From an uncultured Akkermansia sp. (lineage in GTDB: Bacteria; Verrucomicrobiota; Verrucomicrobiia; Verrucomicrobiales; Akkermansiaceae), in NCBI GenBank assembly GCA_947588735.1, contig CANQAD010000001.1, positions 20,086-84,085 on the forward strand: a stretch of 64,000 bases of DNA. Reading direction: 5' to 3'. Under the pieces are notes generated by a model, which saw only the letters and a list, made by a program, of their open reading frames with translations, had not been told where the DNA came from and searched no databases. The translations under genes were made by a program, and so were the position numbers. The stretch's first letter is position 1. Every line of letters starts with the position of its first letter. This document shows positions 11,248 through 64,000 of this stretch, piece after piece.

Positions 11248-11674
11248 CACGTTCGTCCCAAGAAAGAGCAATCCCCAATAAGTTGTTAACGGCGCATCGT
11301 TCAACGCAAATCGTTGATTATTTACGATTTACGATTTACGATTGACGATTTGGAAAGAAAGCGAGCCGGAGGCTCGGAAAATGCGGAGCGTGGGCGACGG
11401 GAAAAGGCGGAACCAGGCGCAGATTGGTTAGAAAGCGAAGCTCAATTTTCTAAGTCAAGATGCGATGATCAAGGGAAAGCATCCGGTGTTACGCTATGCC
11501 GGGCTGACTCATCGGTCTTACCACCGCTGCGCGTGCGCCCTACCGGGGAGCGTTGACCGCTTTGCTGAATCGTCCATGGTTTGCTGTCTTGCTGGCCTGC
11601 TTCTTTCGCCCTTGGAAAACGCATGGGAAATGGGTTCAATAAGACCGGAGAATATTTTCTTGGGACACGTGTGC
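11248..11674 (-). mobile_element. Repeat family 2 (MITE-like), copy 1
   Basis: TIR CACGTTCGTCCC...GGGACACGTGTG; perfect 9 bp duplication CCGTATGCT at 11239-11247 and 11675-11683; internally homologous to the copies at 29.1 and 35.7 kb. Confidence 0.85.
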
Positions 11675-29795: not shown

Positions 29796-31070
29796 ATGGC
29801 CATCAGGTTTCGCCCAGCAGATACCGTACGTGGTAGCATAGAGTTGCTGCGTTTTCGCACGCGGCGCCGCGCGATCATTTTGATGACGATCATTCTGGCT
29901 GCGCTAATGACTATTCTGTATGTGACCAAGATCCTCATTGGCACGCCGCCTCAGCCGGAGTTCATCGTGTACCAGGAGCAAAACGTCGAAGAGCTTGTGC
30001 CGACTACGCCAAAAGTGCGCGACATCTCTGGCGGAAAGCCGCCTGCCACCCCGCCAGTGGCCACTATTATTGCTGCTAATTCGGATGTTGCGAATCCAGA
30101 CTTCACCATGGATGTGGATATGGATGCGCCGATAATGTCAACGAGTGATATGGACTCCCTTGGTGGGGGGGGGCTGGGAGAGGGCTTGGGTGAAGGTTCC
30201 GGTCGCGGAGGCATGGGCGGCAAGAAGGTGGACTCTGCATTCGCCGGCTATTTCTGGGATTTGAAGCGCACGGTCAATGGCAAACCATCTGCTTACGAGG
30301 GCGCGATTAGCAACGAGCAGGTGCTTGAGTTTGAGAGCAATTTTTACAATAAAGGGTGGGATTTGGGTATGCTTGTGATGTTCATGCAAGCCAGGATGCC
30401 GCTTTACAGCACCTGTTTTTTCATGCCAAACTGTAAAGACGAAGAGGCTGTGCATGCCTATGACCCTACGGGCAAGCAGGGCCTCAAGAAAAGCCGCTGG
30501 CTGGTTGTGTATCGCGCGAAGGTGAAGGCGCCGACCAGCGGGACATTCCGCTTTGTGGGCGCGGCAGACACAGTGATGGCGGTGCGTTTTGACGGGCGCA
30601 ATGTCTTGGCGTGCGGTCTGCACAACCTGCGCAACGCCACATGGAACGAGTGGCTTACCGCCGCTGATATCAAGAAGGAACGCCCTCTTGTACAGTACAA
30701 AGGAATCGAAGTTTGGAATGAATCTATGGGGGGATTTGAGATAGGCGATCCCATCAAGGTAGAAGCCGGCAAATGGTATGAAATGCAGGTGATGATTTCA
30801 GAAATCGGCGGCGGCGAGTTTGGCTTCTGCCTGCTTATTGATGAGGAGGGCGAAGAAAAGAAAACAATCAAAGAGGGGAAGCCTCTCTTTCAGCTTTTCC
30901 GTACTGCCTTTTCCTCTCCAACCATCCAATCTGCTTATGCGGCCATCCCCGAAAAGAACAAAGAAAGCGATGAAACGGCTGATGTGATGTTGCTCAAGGA
31001 TATCCCCTACGATCCGGACAGCCGCATCTGGGAAGCCAAGCCGGTGGATGTTTCTGTGAAGATGAAATAA
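29796..31070 (+). CDS. Membrane-anchored protein with putative PA14-like domain; contains G9 tract (30165-30173)
   Basis: ORF 29610-31070 with start moved to ATG 29796 after the promoter; N-terminal TM helix; Gly-rich linker; domain call tentative. Confidence 0.65.
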   Translation: MAIRFRPADTVRGSIELLRFRTRRRAIILMTIILAALMTILYVTKILIGTPPQPEFIVYQEQNVEELVPTTPKVRDISGGKPPATPPVATIIAANSDVANPDFTMDVDMDAPIMSTSDMDSLGGGGLGEGLGEGSGRGGMGGKKVDSAFAGYFWDLKRTVNGKPSAYEGAISNEQVLEFESNFYNKGWDLGMLVMFMQARMPLYSTCFFMPNCKDEEAVHAYDPTGKQGLKKSRWLVVYRAKVKAPTSGTFRFVGAADTVMAVRFDGRNVLACGLHNLRNATWNEWLTAADIKKERPLVQYKGIEVWNESMGGFEIGDPIKVEAGKWYEMQVMISEIGGGEFGFCLLIDEEGEEKKTIKEGKPLFQLFRTAFSSPTIQSAYAAIPEKNKESDETADVMLLKDIPYDPDSRIWEAKPVDVSVKMK

Positions 31071-35738: not shown

Positions 35739-36107
35739 CACACGTGTCCCAATAAAATCTTCTCCGGGCTCATTCAATCCATTTCCCATGCGTTTTCTTC
35801 GGACGAAAATGGCAGCGCTTCGCCTCCCCGAGCGTCAGCGTGCAAATTCCCCAAATCGAAAATCAAAAATCGTAACTCGAAAATCCCCTTGTGATTCAAC
35901 TTCGCTCCCCCACTCAGCTTTCTCATTAGTCATGCGCGCGGTTCCGCCCTCCCCCGTCGCTACCGCTCCGCATTTCCCGAGCCTCCGGCTCGCTAGCTTT
36001 TGCAAATCGTCAATCGTCAATCGTCATTCATAAATAACCAAAGGCTTATGCTTCATAATGTGCCGTTAACGACCTGTCGGGGGTGCTTTTTTCTCGGGAC
36101 ACGTGTG
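35739..36107 (+). mobile_element. Repeat family 2, copy 3
   Basis: Perfect 12 bp TIR CACACGTGTCCC / GGGACACGTGTG; ATTTGAGG repeated at 35731-35738 and 36109-36116. Confidence 0.85.
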
Positions 36108-55483: not shown

Positions 55484-56824
55484 ATGAACATGAGCAGAAG
55501 CAATGAAAGGGCAATGCAGATGCTGTTGGCAGCGGCAGCGGTTTGCTTGTTTGCGGGCTGCAAAGGTAAAGATGAAGAGACGCAGGAGGCTGCGAGCAAC
55601 CGACAGCAGCACATGGACTTGCCTCTTCAGGCGGTGGAGCCTGTAGAACCGGAGGCACAGGATGTGCGGTTCACCTTACTGCCGTTGCTGGCAGATTTTC
55701 CGATGGTCAAGTTAGGTGATGTGCAGATGGTTTGCACGCCGAAGGATGATGGCAGAGTGTCAGTGACGGCTCGCGCGATGATCAGCGTTGAGGAGAATTT
55801 GTACAGCACGGAGGATGCCCCGGCCATCTTCAACACCGAGCGAAAAGAAATTAACGATGCTCTGAATCGTGCCATGCTGCCGGAATCTGCTTATTTGCTT
55901 CAGGTGGGCGCCGATCCTGCTGGTATCACAGAGGAGGATCGCGCGGCAAAACCTCTTCCGAAGGATTTGCAAAAGCTTGCCGATGAAATTAAATCGCTTG
56001 CTGAGCGCTCGGTGTACCGCCTGCTCACTCCTGCTCAAACAACGGTGGAAATACCTGCCTCCATGATTGCGTCGCGCGCGGATGGTCGCTGGACGATGAG
56101 TGACATTAGTTTTGACACGCAGCCTTTGCGTAGTTTGTTGTCACTTATCCCGGAACGGGCTCTACCTCAGGATGCCATGGTGGCAACGGATGGATTTGAG
56201 GAAAAACAGCGTGCGCTGATGCGCGAAAAAACAGAGGCATTTAATGCCGCAGCCAAGCCCTATATCGATGGTCGTGAAACTGCAGCGAGGACACGCATGC
56301 TTGAGGCCAGGGCGCGACGCGATGAGGCCGTGAAAGCTGCCCAACAGGAGGCTGCTGCATGCGAGGAACGACGAAAAGCATGGGAGAACGCATGCGCAAA
56401 GTTTTTCTTTGACTCGGCGGCCTACACAGGGGAATGGAAGCGCGGGGATGCCTTCGGCAAGTTCACTCTGCGTATCTCGCGCGCTGAAAAATATCCCGAT
56501 TCCGTGCAATTCATCGGCACCCTTTCGGATACTGATCTCCCGCAGGCGGAAATGCGCATCGTTGGTCGCTGTGAATCTGCCCCGAAGAACGGTGACCCCA
56601 TCCCCTGTGTCGTGCATGTGTACAACGGTCGCTACGATCCGGATGTAGCTACGGCGGAAGTATTCGATAAGCAGGATGGCATTTTACGCTTGTCTCTGAC
56701 GGAGGATGGCGCGCTCACCGGCAAGTTGACCTGCGAATCATGGGATAAGGAGCCGGAAAAGGCCTTTGATGTGCGGTTAAATCTGGCGCAGAAAAAGTCT
56801 GCGCGCCGGGTGCAGCGTCGTTGA
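55484..56824 (+). CDS. Hypothetical lipoprotein
   Basis: LLAAAAVCLFAGCKGK lipobox; long ORF. Confidence 0.72.
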   Translation: MNMSRSNERAMQMLLAAAAVCLFAGCKGKDEETQEAASNRQQHMDLPLQAVEPVEPEAQDVRFTLLPLLADFPMVKLGDVQMVCTPKDDGRVSVTARAMISVEENLYSTEDAPAIFNTERKEINDALNRAMLPESAYLLQVGADPAGITEEDRAAKPLPKDLQKLADEIKSLAERSVYRLLTPAQTTVEIPASMIASRADGRWTMSDISFDTQPLRSLLSLIPERALPQDAMVATDGFEEKQRALMREKTEAFNAAAKPYIDGRETAARTRMLEARARRDEAVKAAQQEAAACEERRKAWENACAKFFFDSAAYTGEWKRGDAFGKFTLRISRAEKYPDSVQFIGTLSDTDLPQAEMRIVGRCESAPKNGDPIPCVVHVYNGRYDPDVATAEVFDKQDGILRLSLTEDGALTGKLTCESWDKEPEKAFDVRLNLAQKKSARRVQRR

Positions 56825-60608: not shown

Positions 60609-60681
60609 TACCCCCGCACGGGCTCGAACCGTGGACAAACTGATTAAGAGTCAGCTGCTCTACCAACTGAGCTACGGAGGC
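60609..60681 (-). tRNA. tRNA-Lys (anticodon CTT), copy 1
   Basis: Minus-strand GCCTCCGTAGCTCAGTTGG...; loop CTCTTAA. Confidence 0.94.
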
Positions 60682-60724
60682 TTTGCCGATGGTACAGCTC
60701 ACCGCTGCCGCTGTGCGCTGTGCT

Positions 60725-60797
60725 TACCCCCGCACGGGCTCGAACCGTGGACAAACTGATTAAGAGTCAGCTGCTCTACCAACTGAGCTACGGAGGC
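60725..60797 (-). tRNA. tRNA-Lys (anticodon CTT), copy 2, identical
   Basis: 73 nt identical to copy 1. Confidence 0.94.
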
Positions 60798-61007: not shown

Positions 61008-61210
61008 CATGCGTTTTGCTTGACGGCAGGCAATGGAATTTTCACTTCTCCCGTCTTTTCCCGGGATTATTACTGCGCGTCCCGCGCGCAAGCGTGCATT
61101 CTTCCCAAATCGTCAATCGTAAATCGAAGATCGAAAATTACCAATGGGTTATTCTTCGTGATGCGGCGATAACCGCCATTGAGATCGCTTGTTTTCGGGA
61201 CAAATGTGTG
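61008..61210 (+). mobile_element. Repeat family 2, copy 4 (left end missing)
   Basis: CATGCGTTTT near left; AAATCGTCAATCGTAAATCG tract; GTGATGCGGCGATAACCGCC...CGGGACAAATGTGTG right end. Confidence 0.65.
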
Positions 61211-61239: not shown

Positions 61240-61267
61240 TTGATTCGTCTGCGGGATGTGCTATGAT
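61240..61267 (+). promoter_or_regulatory. Putative promoter of Vcc-A gene
   Basis: TTGATT-N16-TATGAT. Confidence 0.5.
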
Positions 61268-61319: not shown

Positions 61320-64000
61320 ATGAAATATTTTAGAAGTAAACTGAAAACAGATGGGGGGGGGGCGCCCGTGCGCAGGCGTGGGTTCGCGCTTGTGGCGAGC
61401 CTCACGTTGATGATGCTGCTCGGGCTGATTGCGGTTGGCATTTTAGCGGTGGCCTCCTCGCAGAACCGTATTGCAGCTCAAACCATTTTGCAGGCAGAGG
61501 CGCGCCAGCAGGCGCTCATCGGACTGGATGCCGCTATCTCTGATTTACAGATGGAGATTGGACCGGATCAGCGCGTCACCGCTTCCTCCGGCATTCTGTC
61601 AGAGGATGAGTCCACTCCTCAGCATATTCTCGGTGTCTGGGACAGTTGGAAGGCCCCTCTCTACAGCCGCAGCGATGGCGCAGCCATCGACTCCACCTAC
61701 AACCAGGGGCGTTCTTCCATGTTCCGCCGCTGGCTCATCTCCAGCGACAATGTCACCACCCTGCGCCAACTAGATGCTATCTCAGATTTGGGACGTTCCA
61801 AACCCGGTCGGCGTATTTGCATGGTGGGCGAGGGAACTCTGGGCGCCGATGCGAGTGACCGGGAGTATGTGTACGCTGACCTTATCGAAATGCCCTCTGC
61901 CGGACGTAATCAGACCTGCTTTGCCTGGTGGGTAGGAGGTGAGAATCAGAAGGCGAATGTGGCCATAGCCGACCGCGAGCCTACTAATGACCCCGTTGAA
62001 ATCCTGCGTCGCACTTGGGATACCCCGGCCCCCGATTTTAGCGAGAGTTCCAATTTTTCTTTCATGCCGGATGAAGTTGAGGACGCCCGTAAGATTCTCA
62101 CCCTGCGTACGCTGCCTCTGGTGGACCGAGGCGCCGTGCCTGCCGGCATGCCCTATTTCTTTGATGCCACAGCTTTCTCCTATTCCTTGCTTACCAACGT
62201 GCGCGATGGCGGACTGAAACTCGACCTTAACCTCCTGCTCAATAAGCGCTCTCTGGATGGCACCGGTCTGCAAGAGCGCTCTGACCAGGACTGCCCCATC
62301 GCCGAGGGAGACGGCTTGCCAACCGGCACTGTCCGTAATTTTCCCATCGGCTCCTGGCAGACCATGCATGCCTTCTACAATATGTGGCCTGACGGCTCCG
62401 GGCAGGATAGCGACTTTTCTTCCTTCCGCCTCATCGGTAACGTCACCAATGCCCATACCCGCATGGGTGGCTATCTCCAGTCGGCAACTACCAACAAAGG
62501 CGATGCCGTCACCTGTTACGATGAGCGCGCTGCGCTCAATCGATCGGGAGCCTCGGGCTATCCTCGCATCCCCGTTCTCCTTGCGTTTTATGGGGCGTAC
62601 GGGCTGGCTCTCTCTGACTCGAAGAATCAAGCGGAAGCCCAATACAGTCACGGTACATGCTATGCGCCTTTCATGCTGTGGTGGAATCCCTATAATGTGC
62701 AGATGCGTGTAGGCCCCAAAAAATTGTGGGTCATGAGTTTGCCCTATCGAACGTTTCCTGTGTTGTTATACAGCAGTTATGAGCCTGGTCGACCATGGTT
62801 CCGACATAGCCTCGTACCTTCCATCTCATTTAAGCAGCCTTTTGACGGCGGCGGCAACGGCATCGCTCAAGGCAATGTGTACGGGAGCGACTGGGGAAAC
62901 TACTTCGTGCGATCCAAGGAAGATCAGAGCGGCGACATCGTTTTCGAGCCCGGTGAAATTCTCATGTTCTCCATGAGTGAGGGGTGGAATAATTTGACTT
63001 ATGCACTTGATCACCCTGGTGAAGAACGAACGAAATGTTTCAGCCAGCCCCAGGCAATCCCCTTCGTGCAGGGGGACCAAGTGGGCATGCTCCATAATTA
63101 CTTCCAATCCTCGTATTCCCATGGCCAATTCTTTCAATTTGAAACCAGACTTGCTTTTGAAAGCCAGGCTGTGATGGATATCATGAGCAACTATGTTCAG
63201 CAGTTGGATCCCGGAGACGGCGACTACAGCAACGGCAAATACAAGTACGACACCATAGGAGAGGTGGTAGGGCCCGGCATGCGCGAGGCTTATGTAGTGC
63301 CCCATGGATTCAATGGAATCGACTCGTCCTCAGCTAAAGGAAAGGATCCTGATACGAGCCGCCTGTTGGCCAAGGAGGATCGTTTCCTGGGGGCGGAAGG
63401 GATGAGTCCTTACGTGTTTACCTTGGGATGGTACGATTACAATACAGTCTCCATTGATGACGTGACTTTTGTGAAAGGCGCTCATTGGAACGTGAGCATG
63501 TACAACAACCCGTACTACTATGCGGCAGTCGGTGTAGCGCCCAAATCGTATAATCCCTCTCTCAGCGAGGCGATGCCCATGTTTGCCAACAAAAGCTATC
63601 GCACGCGCAACTGGCTGCACTCCAGTCCGGCACTGGGAGGGGGGGTGCTCTACAAGCCGGATGAGCAGCAGCGCCAGTACCACCCCTTCCAGCTTTCGGC
63701 CATCAAGGTGGATGGCGAACGGGTGCTTGATACGGTGAACACGAAGAATGGTCTCTTTGGCATTTCAAGCGTCGGCATTGGCGGCGGTGAGGCTGTTTCT
63801 TTCATCTCTGTGTTGGAGCTGCCTGCGCACCCGCCTTTCTCTCTGGCGGGCTTTGCAGGCATGCGGTTAAAACCCGGGTGGTACAACTCAGGCGGCAGTG
63901 GGGGCGAGGCCATGATCTCCAACATGCGGCGTGCGCAATATCAGGCCGGGGTGCCGGGAGTGGGCATTGGCAATTCTTTTGCAGATCCCACCATACCGCC
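61320..64000 (+). CDS. Verru_Chthon cassette protein A-like (3' end outside window); G10 tract at codons 12-15
   Basis: MKYFRSKLKTDGGGAPVRRRGFALVASLTLMMLLGLIAVGILAVASSQNRIAAQ...QMEIGPDQRVTASSGIL; frame open to window end, so absent from ORF track. Confidence 0.82.
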   Translation, partial: MKYFRSKLKTDGGGAPVRRRGFALVASLTLMMLLGLIAVGILAVASSQNRIAAQTILQAEARQQALIGLDAAISDLQMEIGPDQRVTASSGILSEDESTPQHILGVWDSWKAPLYSRSDGAAIDSTYNQGRSSMFRRWLISSDNVTTLRQLDAISDLGRSKPGRRICMVGEGTLGADASDREYVYADLIEMPSAGRNQTCFAWWVGGENQKANVAIADREPTNDPVEILRRTWDTPAPDFSESSNFSFMPDEVEDARKILTLRTLPLVDRGAVPAGMPYFFDATAFSYSLLTNVRDGGLKLDLNLLLNKRSLDGTGLQERSDQDCPIAEGDGLPTGTVRNFPIGSWQTMHAFYNMWPDGSGQDSDFSSFRLIGNVTNAHTRMGGYLQSATTNKGDAVTCYDERAALNRSGASGYPRIPVLLAFYGAYGLALSDSKNQAEAQYSHGTCYAPFMLWWNPYNVQMRVGPKKLWVMSLPYRTFPVLLYSSYEPGRPWFRHSLVPSISFKQPFDGGGNGIAQGNVYGSDWGNYFVRSKEDQSGDIVFEPGEILMFSMSEGWNNLTYALDHPGEERTKCFSQPQAIPFVQGDQVGMLHNYFQSSYSHGQFFQFETRLAFESQAVMDIMSNYVQQLDPGDGDYSNGKYKYDTIGEVVGPGMREAYVVPHGFNGIDSSSAKGKDPDTSRLLAKEDRFLGAEGMSPYVFTLGWYDYNTVSIDDVTFVKGAHWNVSMYNNPYYYAAVGVAPKSYNPSLSEAMPMFANKSYRTRNWLHSSPALGGGVLYKPDEQQRQYHPFQLSAIKVDGERVLDTVNTKNGLFGISSVGIGGGEAVSFISVLELPAHPPFSLAGFAGMRLKPGWYNSGGSGGEAMISNMRRAQYQAGVPGVGIGNSFADPTIP

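Follow-up and report, generated by a model that had tools for sequence, protein, structure and literature searches.

According to our analysis, the run of ten guanines at positions 61353 to 61362 (forward strand) of the window, the whole stretch of 64,000 nucleotides that was analysed, marks a plausible, recent and unproven contingency-locus candidate in the gene of a large predicted envelope protein. We give the view that the tract switches this gene mechanically about an even chance and rate a maintained adaptive switch lower than that. The mechanism is plausible here because slippage has been reported in the genus and because two genes of the same genome are frameshifted at G10. Against the phase-variable switch that the sequence-only reading had proposed stand the lack of conservation of the tract and a downstream GTG codon which may bypass it.

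The tract and its gene

The source genome is a metagenome-assembled genome (MAG) of an uncultured Akkermansia species, 2.2 Mb in 110 contigs and 89% complete. When the sequence was read directly, the tract was found to consist of exactly ten G, to cover codons 12 to 15 and to be in frame after the ATG at 61320 (AAA TAT TTT AGA AGT AAA CTG AAA ACA GAT GGG GGG GGG GCG CCC GTG CGC), and to lie close to the 5' end, just ahead of the prepilin-like motif G|FALVASLTLMMLLGL, all as had been described before. What is present is a long homopolymer (G10) inside a coding region, as is typical of contingency loci. It is the single run of ten within the 64-kb window. Genome-wide, and relative to the numbers expected from first-order composition, G/C runs of at least 7 are depleted (137 versus 229), those of at least 8 number 52 versus 58, those of at least 9 number 23 versus 15, and those of at least 10 number about 10 versus 3.7 (Poisson p about 0.005). 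The long tail (at least 10) is thus over-represented, since counts exceed expectation there while runs of at least 7 are depleted, a profile compatible with slippage dynamics as well as with selection for tracts. A single G10 close to a gene start is, genome-wide, no improbable event by itself. Other Akkermansia genomes hold 2 to 50 runs of at least 9, and the present genome is therefore unexceptional.

The reading frame is open from ATG 61320 to the end of the window at 64000 (890+ codons, forward strand), and since the contig stops at that same position, the gene is incomplete. Its nearest complete orthologue, locus L067, encodes 1275 amino acids and is 76% identical. Upstream, at 61240 to 61267 of the same strand, lies a promoter-like element TTGATT-16-TATGAT with a TG ahead of the -10 hexamer, and by reading the same TTGATT/TATGAT arrangement precedes the L067 orthologue. 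The predicted protein starts with a short basic leader, MKYFRSKLKTDGGGAPVRRRG (61320 to 61382), which runs into a prepilin-like motif G|FALVASLTLMMLLGLIAVGILAVA (61380 to 61454), a possible prepilin-peptidase site with its hydrophobic segment, recognized from the sequence and from a weak T2SS_GspK alignment. The residues downstream of the tract, APVRRRG|FALVASLTLMMLLGLIAVGILAVA, thus display type IV prepilin-like or GspK-type features, namely a basic leader, a G|F site and a long hydrophobic helix (RRRG|FALVASLTLMMLLGLIAVGILAVA). Two further features were observed in the window. Degenerate AAATCGTCAATCGTAAATCG repeat clusters, at least some of them intergenic, occur at 36005 to 36023, 61108 to 61133 and 11325 to 11350, and also at locus L140; and two tandem, seemingly identical tRNA-Lys(CTT) genes followed by tRNA-Thr(CGT) adjoin lepA at 60609 to 60797.

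The sequence-only reading had labelled the gene Verru_Chthon cassette protein A, a label which did not hold. The corresponding model, TIGR02600, found no match in the source genome even with E values up to 10, matching neither the window protein nor, when searched separately, the L067 orthologue. In distant Akkermansiaceae homologues only the first 57 to 59 model positions aligned, with 13.6 to 30.6 bits (best alignment: first 59 positions, 30.6 bits, E 8e-8), and none reached the curated cut-off of 332.3 bits. At L067 the one downstream protein that was checked for cassette genes B, C and D belonged to no family, and the window contig ends at this gene. A literature search on Verru_Chthon found no papers. 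The window protein resembles Verru_Chthon cassette protein A in being large and in the kind of hydrophobic segment found at its N terminus, but differs in that both it and its genus orthologue go unmatched by the model. The T2SS GspK model (NCBIfam) aligned to the N terminus only (residues 20 to 83), with 12.6 to 13.6 bits (12.6 for the window protein), below its cut-off of 130 bits; a Pfam search of the protein and a PDB search with the L067 orthologue gave no match, and the AlphaFold prediction, based on an alignment of two sequences, was not usable (mean pLDDT 25.6). Because Pfam was empty, GspK weak and TIGR02600 restricted to the N terminus of distant homologues, we call the predicted product a large pseudopilin-like envelope protein, in architecture probably a distant relative of Verru_Chthon A. 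The earlier assignment to a surface or secretion-linked protein agrees with this prediction.

Slip outcomes and start codons

Translated from ATG 61320, a G9 tract gives a product of 29 residues and a G11 tract one of 74, while G7 and G13 remain in frame. The claim that a slip of one base truncates the protein therefore holds for this start; it does not hold for an alternative start, the GTG at 61368 to 61370 (forward strand; product MRRRGFALV...), which lies 5 nt downstream of the tract and is in frame whatever the tract length. With the usual CCUCC assumed as anti-Shine-Dalgarno sequence in place of the source genome's own, the G run is itself the predicted Shine-Dalgarno sequence of GTG 61368 (-11.1 kcal/mol, spacing 5 to 7 nt), versus -2.9 kcal/mol for ATG 61320 and -2.5 to -5.4 kcal/mol for other genes of the window (lepA, -3.3). 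Since the in-frame GTG carries this strong, tract-made predicted ribosome-binding site, a slip need not turn the gene off, and the OFF state may be leaky. An additional ATG at 61351 comes into frame at G8 and G11.

A start downstream of the tract had been named beforehand as the observation that would speak against a switch. GTG 61368 is a candidate for such a start; nevertheless, ATG 61320 is favoured on comparative sequence grounds as the main start, because the orthologues share this upstream ATG, with its MKY leader, and have no start at the position of the GTG. The M-K-Y start is common to L067, L069, L070 and L071, of which L067 and L070 are the same place. A further upstream candidate, GTG 61281, was set aside, since the sequence upstream of L067 conserves no start at that point and ATG 61320 is shared.

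G tracts in relatives and elsewhere in the genome

A comparison across related species went against the tract being a lasting property of the gene. The leader carries no coding G run of at least 7 in any of the 49 homologous loci examined across genus and family (about 46 distinct, L038/L073, L039/L076 and L067/L070 being duplicates), the closest, 76% identical one included. The tract as a conserved genus feature of the gene was consequently rejected, and its absence from all 49 loci makes it particular to the species or strain. The leader differs in length and sequence among orthologues. At the tract position L067 reads GGTGGCAGGGCGCGCGCGCAC, and the sister sequence is G-rich already, GGTGGCAGGGCGCGC. 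Our search found no conspecific genome, and the tract length (G10) is that of one assembly.

Elsewhere in the source genome, a frameshift falls exactly at a G10 in two genes, a BNR/sialidase-like gene on contig C5 and an AlgX-like acetyltransferase gene on contig C15. The former (position 56544, L006; relatives L089 and L090) matches Pfam BNR_2; its counterpart in the sister species G152 has an in-frame G12, and in G160 the tract is interrupted. The AlgX-like genes (C37:11401, L025 and L113; C15:15132, L014 and L136; L114, L116, L117, L118 and L125) have a G9/G10 tract near codon 210 to 220 which is conserved over five Akkermansia species. The C37 paralogue (PF16822) is intact at G10 and counts among five in-frame alleles, the others being those of G155 (two copies), G002 and G152, and two alleles are frameshifted, that on C15 and that of G159. 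Like the window tract, the AlgX-like tract is an in-frame G9/G10 run and belongs to an envelope-related gene of the source genome; unlike the species-specific window tract, it is conserved in five species and frameshifted in two alleles. As judged by sequence comparison, it is the better contingency-locus candidate.

Tracts of at least 10 within coding regions fell in surface or glycan genes in seven of eight cases, with classes assigned by hand and one tract (C60) classed only by eye, versus two of the six classifiable G9 tracts (Fisher p 0.09). In-frame G9/G10 (or C9) tracts also occur in the housekeeping genes argJ (L016), aroB (L005), speA (arginine decarboxylase, L017), rho (L020) and thi4 (L023), so that an in-frame tract alone is no proof of a switch. 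Two other tracts were observed. An in-frame G10 at C24:20371 (L138, 617 to 10078) sits in a frame that stays open for about 3150 codons and is adhesin-like in size and in its signal-like start; a Pfam scan of 1002 codons surrounding this tract gave no match. In the window, a G9 at 30165 to 30173 encodes a Gly-rich linker, and the protein concerned, membrane-anchored and 490 codons long, has no Pfam match.

Switching, its alternatives and its meaning

Slippage at poly-G has been shown experimentally in Akkermansia muciniphila Amuc_1413, which encodes a Wzz-like exopolysaccharide (EPS) protein: in isolates evolved in culture, G9 had become G10 in 87 to 91% of reads, which shortened the protein from 735 to 98 amino acids with loss of mucin binding, and among 100 genomes 32 had 9G, three had 8G and one had 10G (PMC13055324). 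The window gene shares with Amuc_1413 the genus, a 5' G9/G10 in an envelope gene and an early stop upon a slip of one base. It differs in being a pseudopilin-like and not an EPS gene, and in that for Amuc_1413 length change was observed and many strains share the tract, whereas the window tract has one assembled length and is absent from relatives. The 2011 genome paper on A. muciniphila listed 17 genes with tracts longer than 8 bp, including the acyltransferase gene Amuc_2098, and reported repeats to be enriched at gene termini (PMC3048395). Phase variation of the Akkermansia capsule through DNA inversion has also been reported (PMC13343947). In Bifidobacterium breve UCC2003, as cited in PMC13055324, poly-G pilus loci are reported to be enriched for the ON state in mice; by that account they resemble the window gene in tying a poly-G tract to a pilus-type gene and differ in phylum and pilus type.

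We propose that a slippage-prone G10 would have arisen recently in a fast-evolving leader, which is predicted to be removed on processing. In the assembled state, G10, the gene would be ON from ATG 61320, and a replication slip to G9 or G11 would cut the product short after 29 or 74 residues. As such slips truncate the product, ON and OFF cells would coexist in the population, which would make this a simple-sequence contingency locus by mechanism. In adopting this reading we infer a population in which tract length varies, a main start at ATG 61320 and a phenotypic use of the switching.

The homopolymer may instead be incidental, a G-rich stretch in a weakly constrained leader having drifted to G10, with slips that give rare OFF mutants, selected against, and no evolved switch, an explanation to which we grant considerable weight, though somewhat short of an even chance. 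The variable orthologue leaders, none of which keeps the tract, the G-rich sister sequence and the similar tracts in housekeeping genes are all consistent with it. Codon usage argues against it, since GGG accounts for 17 of the 89 Gly codons of the tract-bearing gene and a Gly-Gly-Gly encoded by three successive GGG is accordingly unlikely (p about 0.007), as does the higher share of surface and glycan genes among tracts of at least 10 than among G9 tracts. A third explanation, which we consider unlikely, is that the tract serves as ribosome-binding site for GTG 61368, its length tuning expression or nothing and leaving the frame unswitched. The difference in predicted pairing between the two starts agrees with this, and the GTG product, MRRRGFALVASL, has a complete prepilin-like leader; however, the pairing rests on an assumed anti-Shine-Dalgarno sequence, weak Shine-Dalgarno sequences are usual in the window, and the orthologues share the upstream ATG and its leader, with no start where the GTG lies.

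Still less probable, in our estimate, is a dual role in which the G run would be both slippage site and Shine-Dalgarno sequence for the downstream in-frame start of the pseudopilin-like protein; slips would then alter both the identity and the amount of the N-terminal leader produced, as a dimmer and not as an all-or-none switch. An assembly artefact, with a true length other than 10 and a contig off by one or more bases, is deemed very improbable: homopolymers are error-prone and the sequence comes from a single MAG in 110 contigs, but the assembled G10 leaves the 890+ codon frame open from a conserved ATG, and conserved genes such as thi4 contain in-frame tracts of this length.

Slippage that truncates the product from ATG 61320 remains our preferred reading of the window tract. 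The AlgX-like tract, conserved and with both ON and OFF alleles, offers stronger and directly testable contingency loci. In Akkermansia, which lives as a commensal in mucus, the set of poly-G phase-variable genes would gain a pilus- or secretion-type surface component if the window gene does switch.
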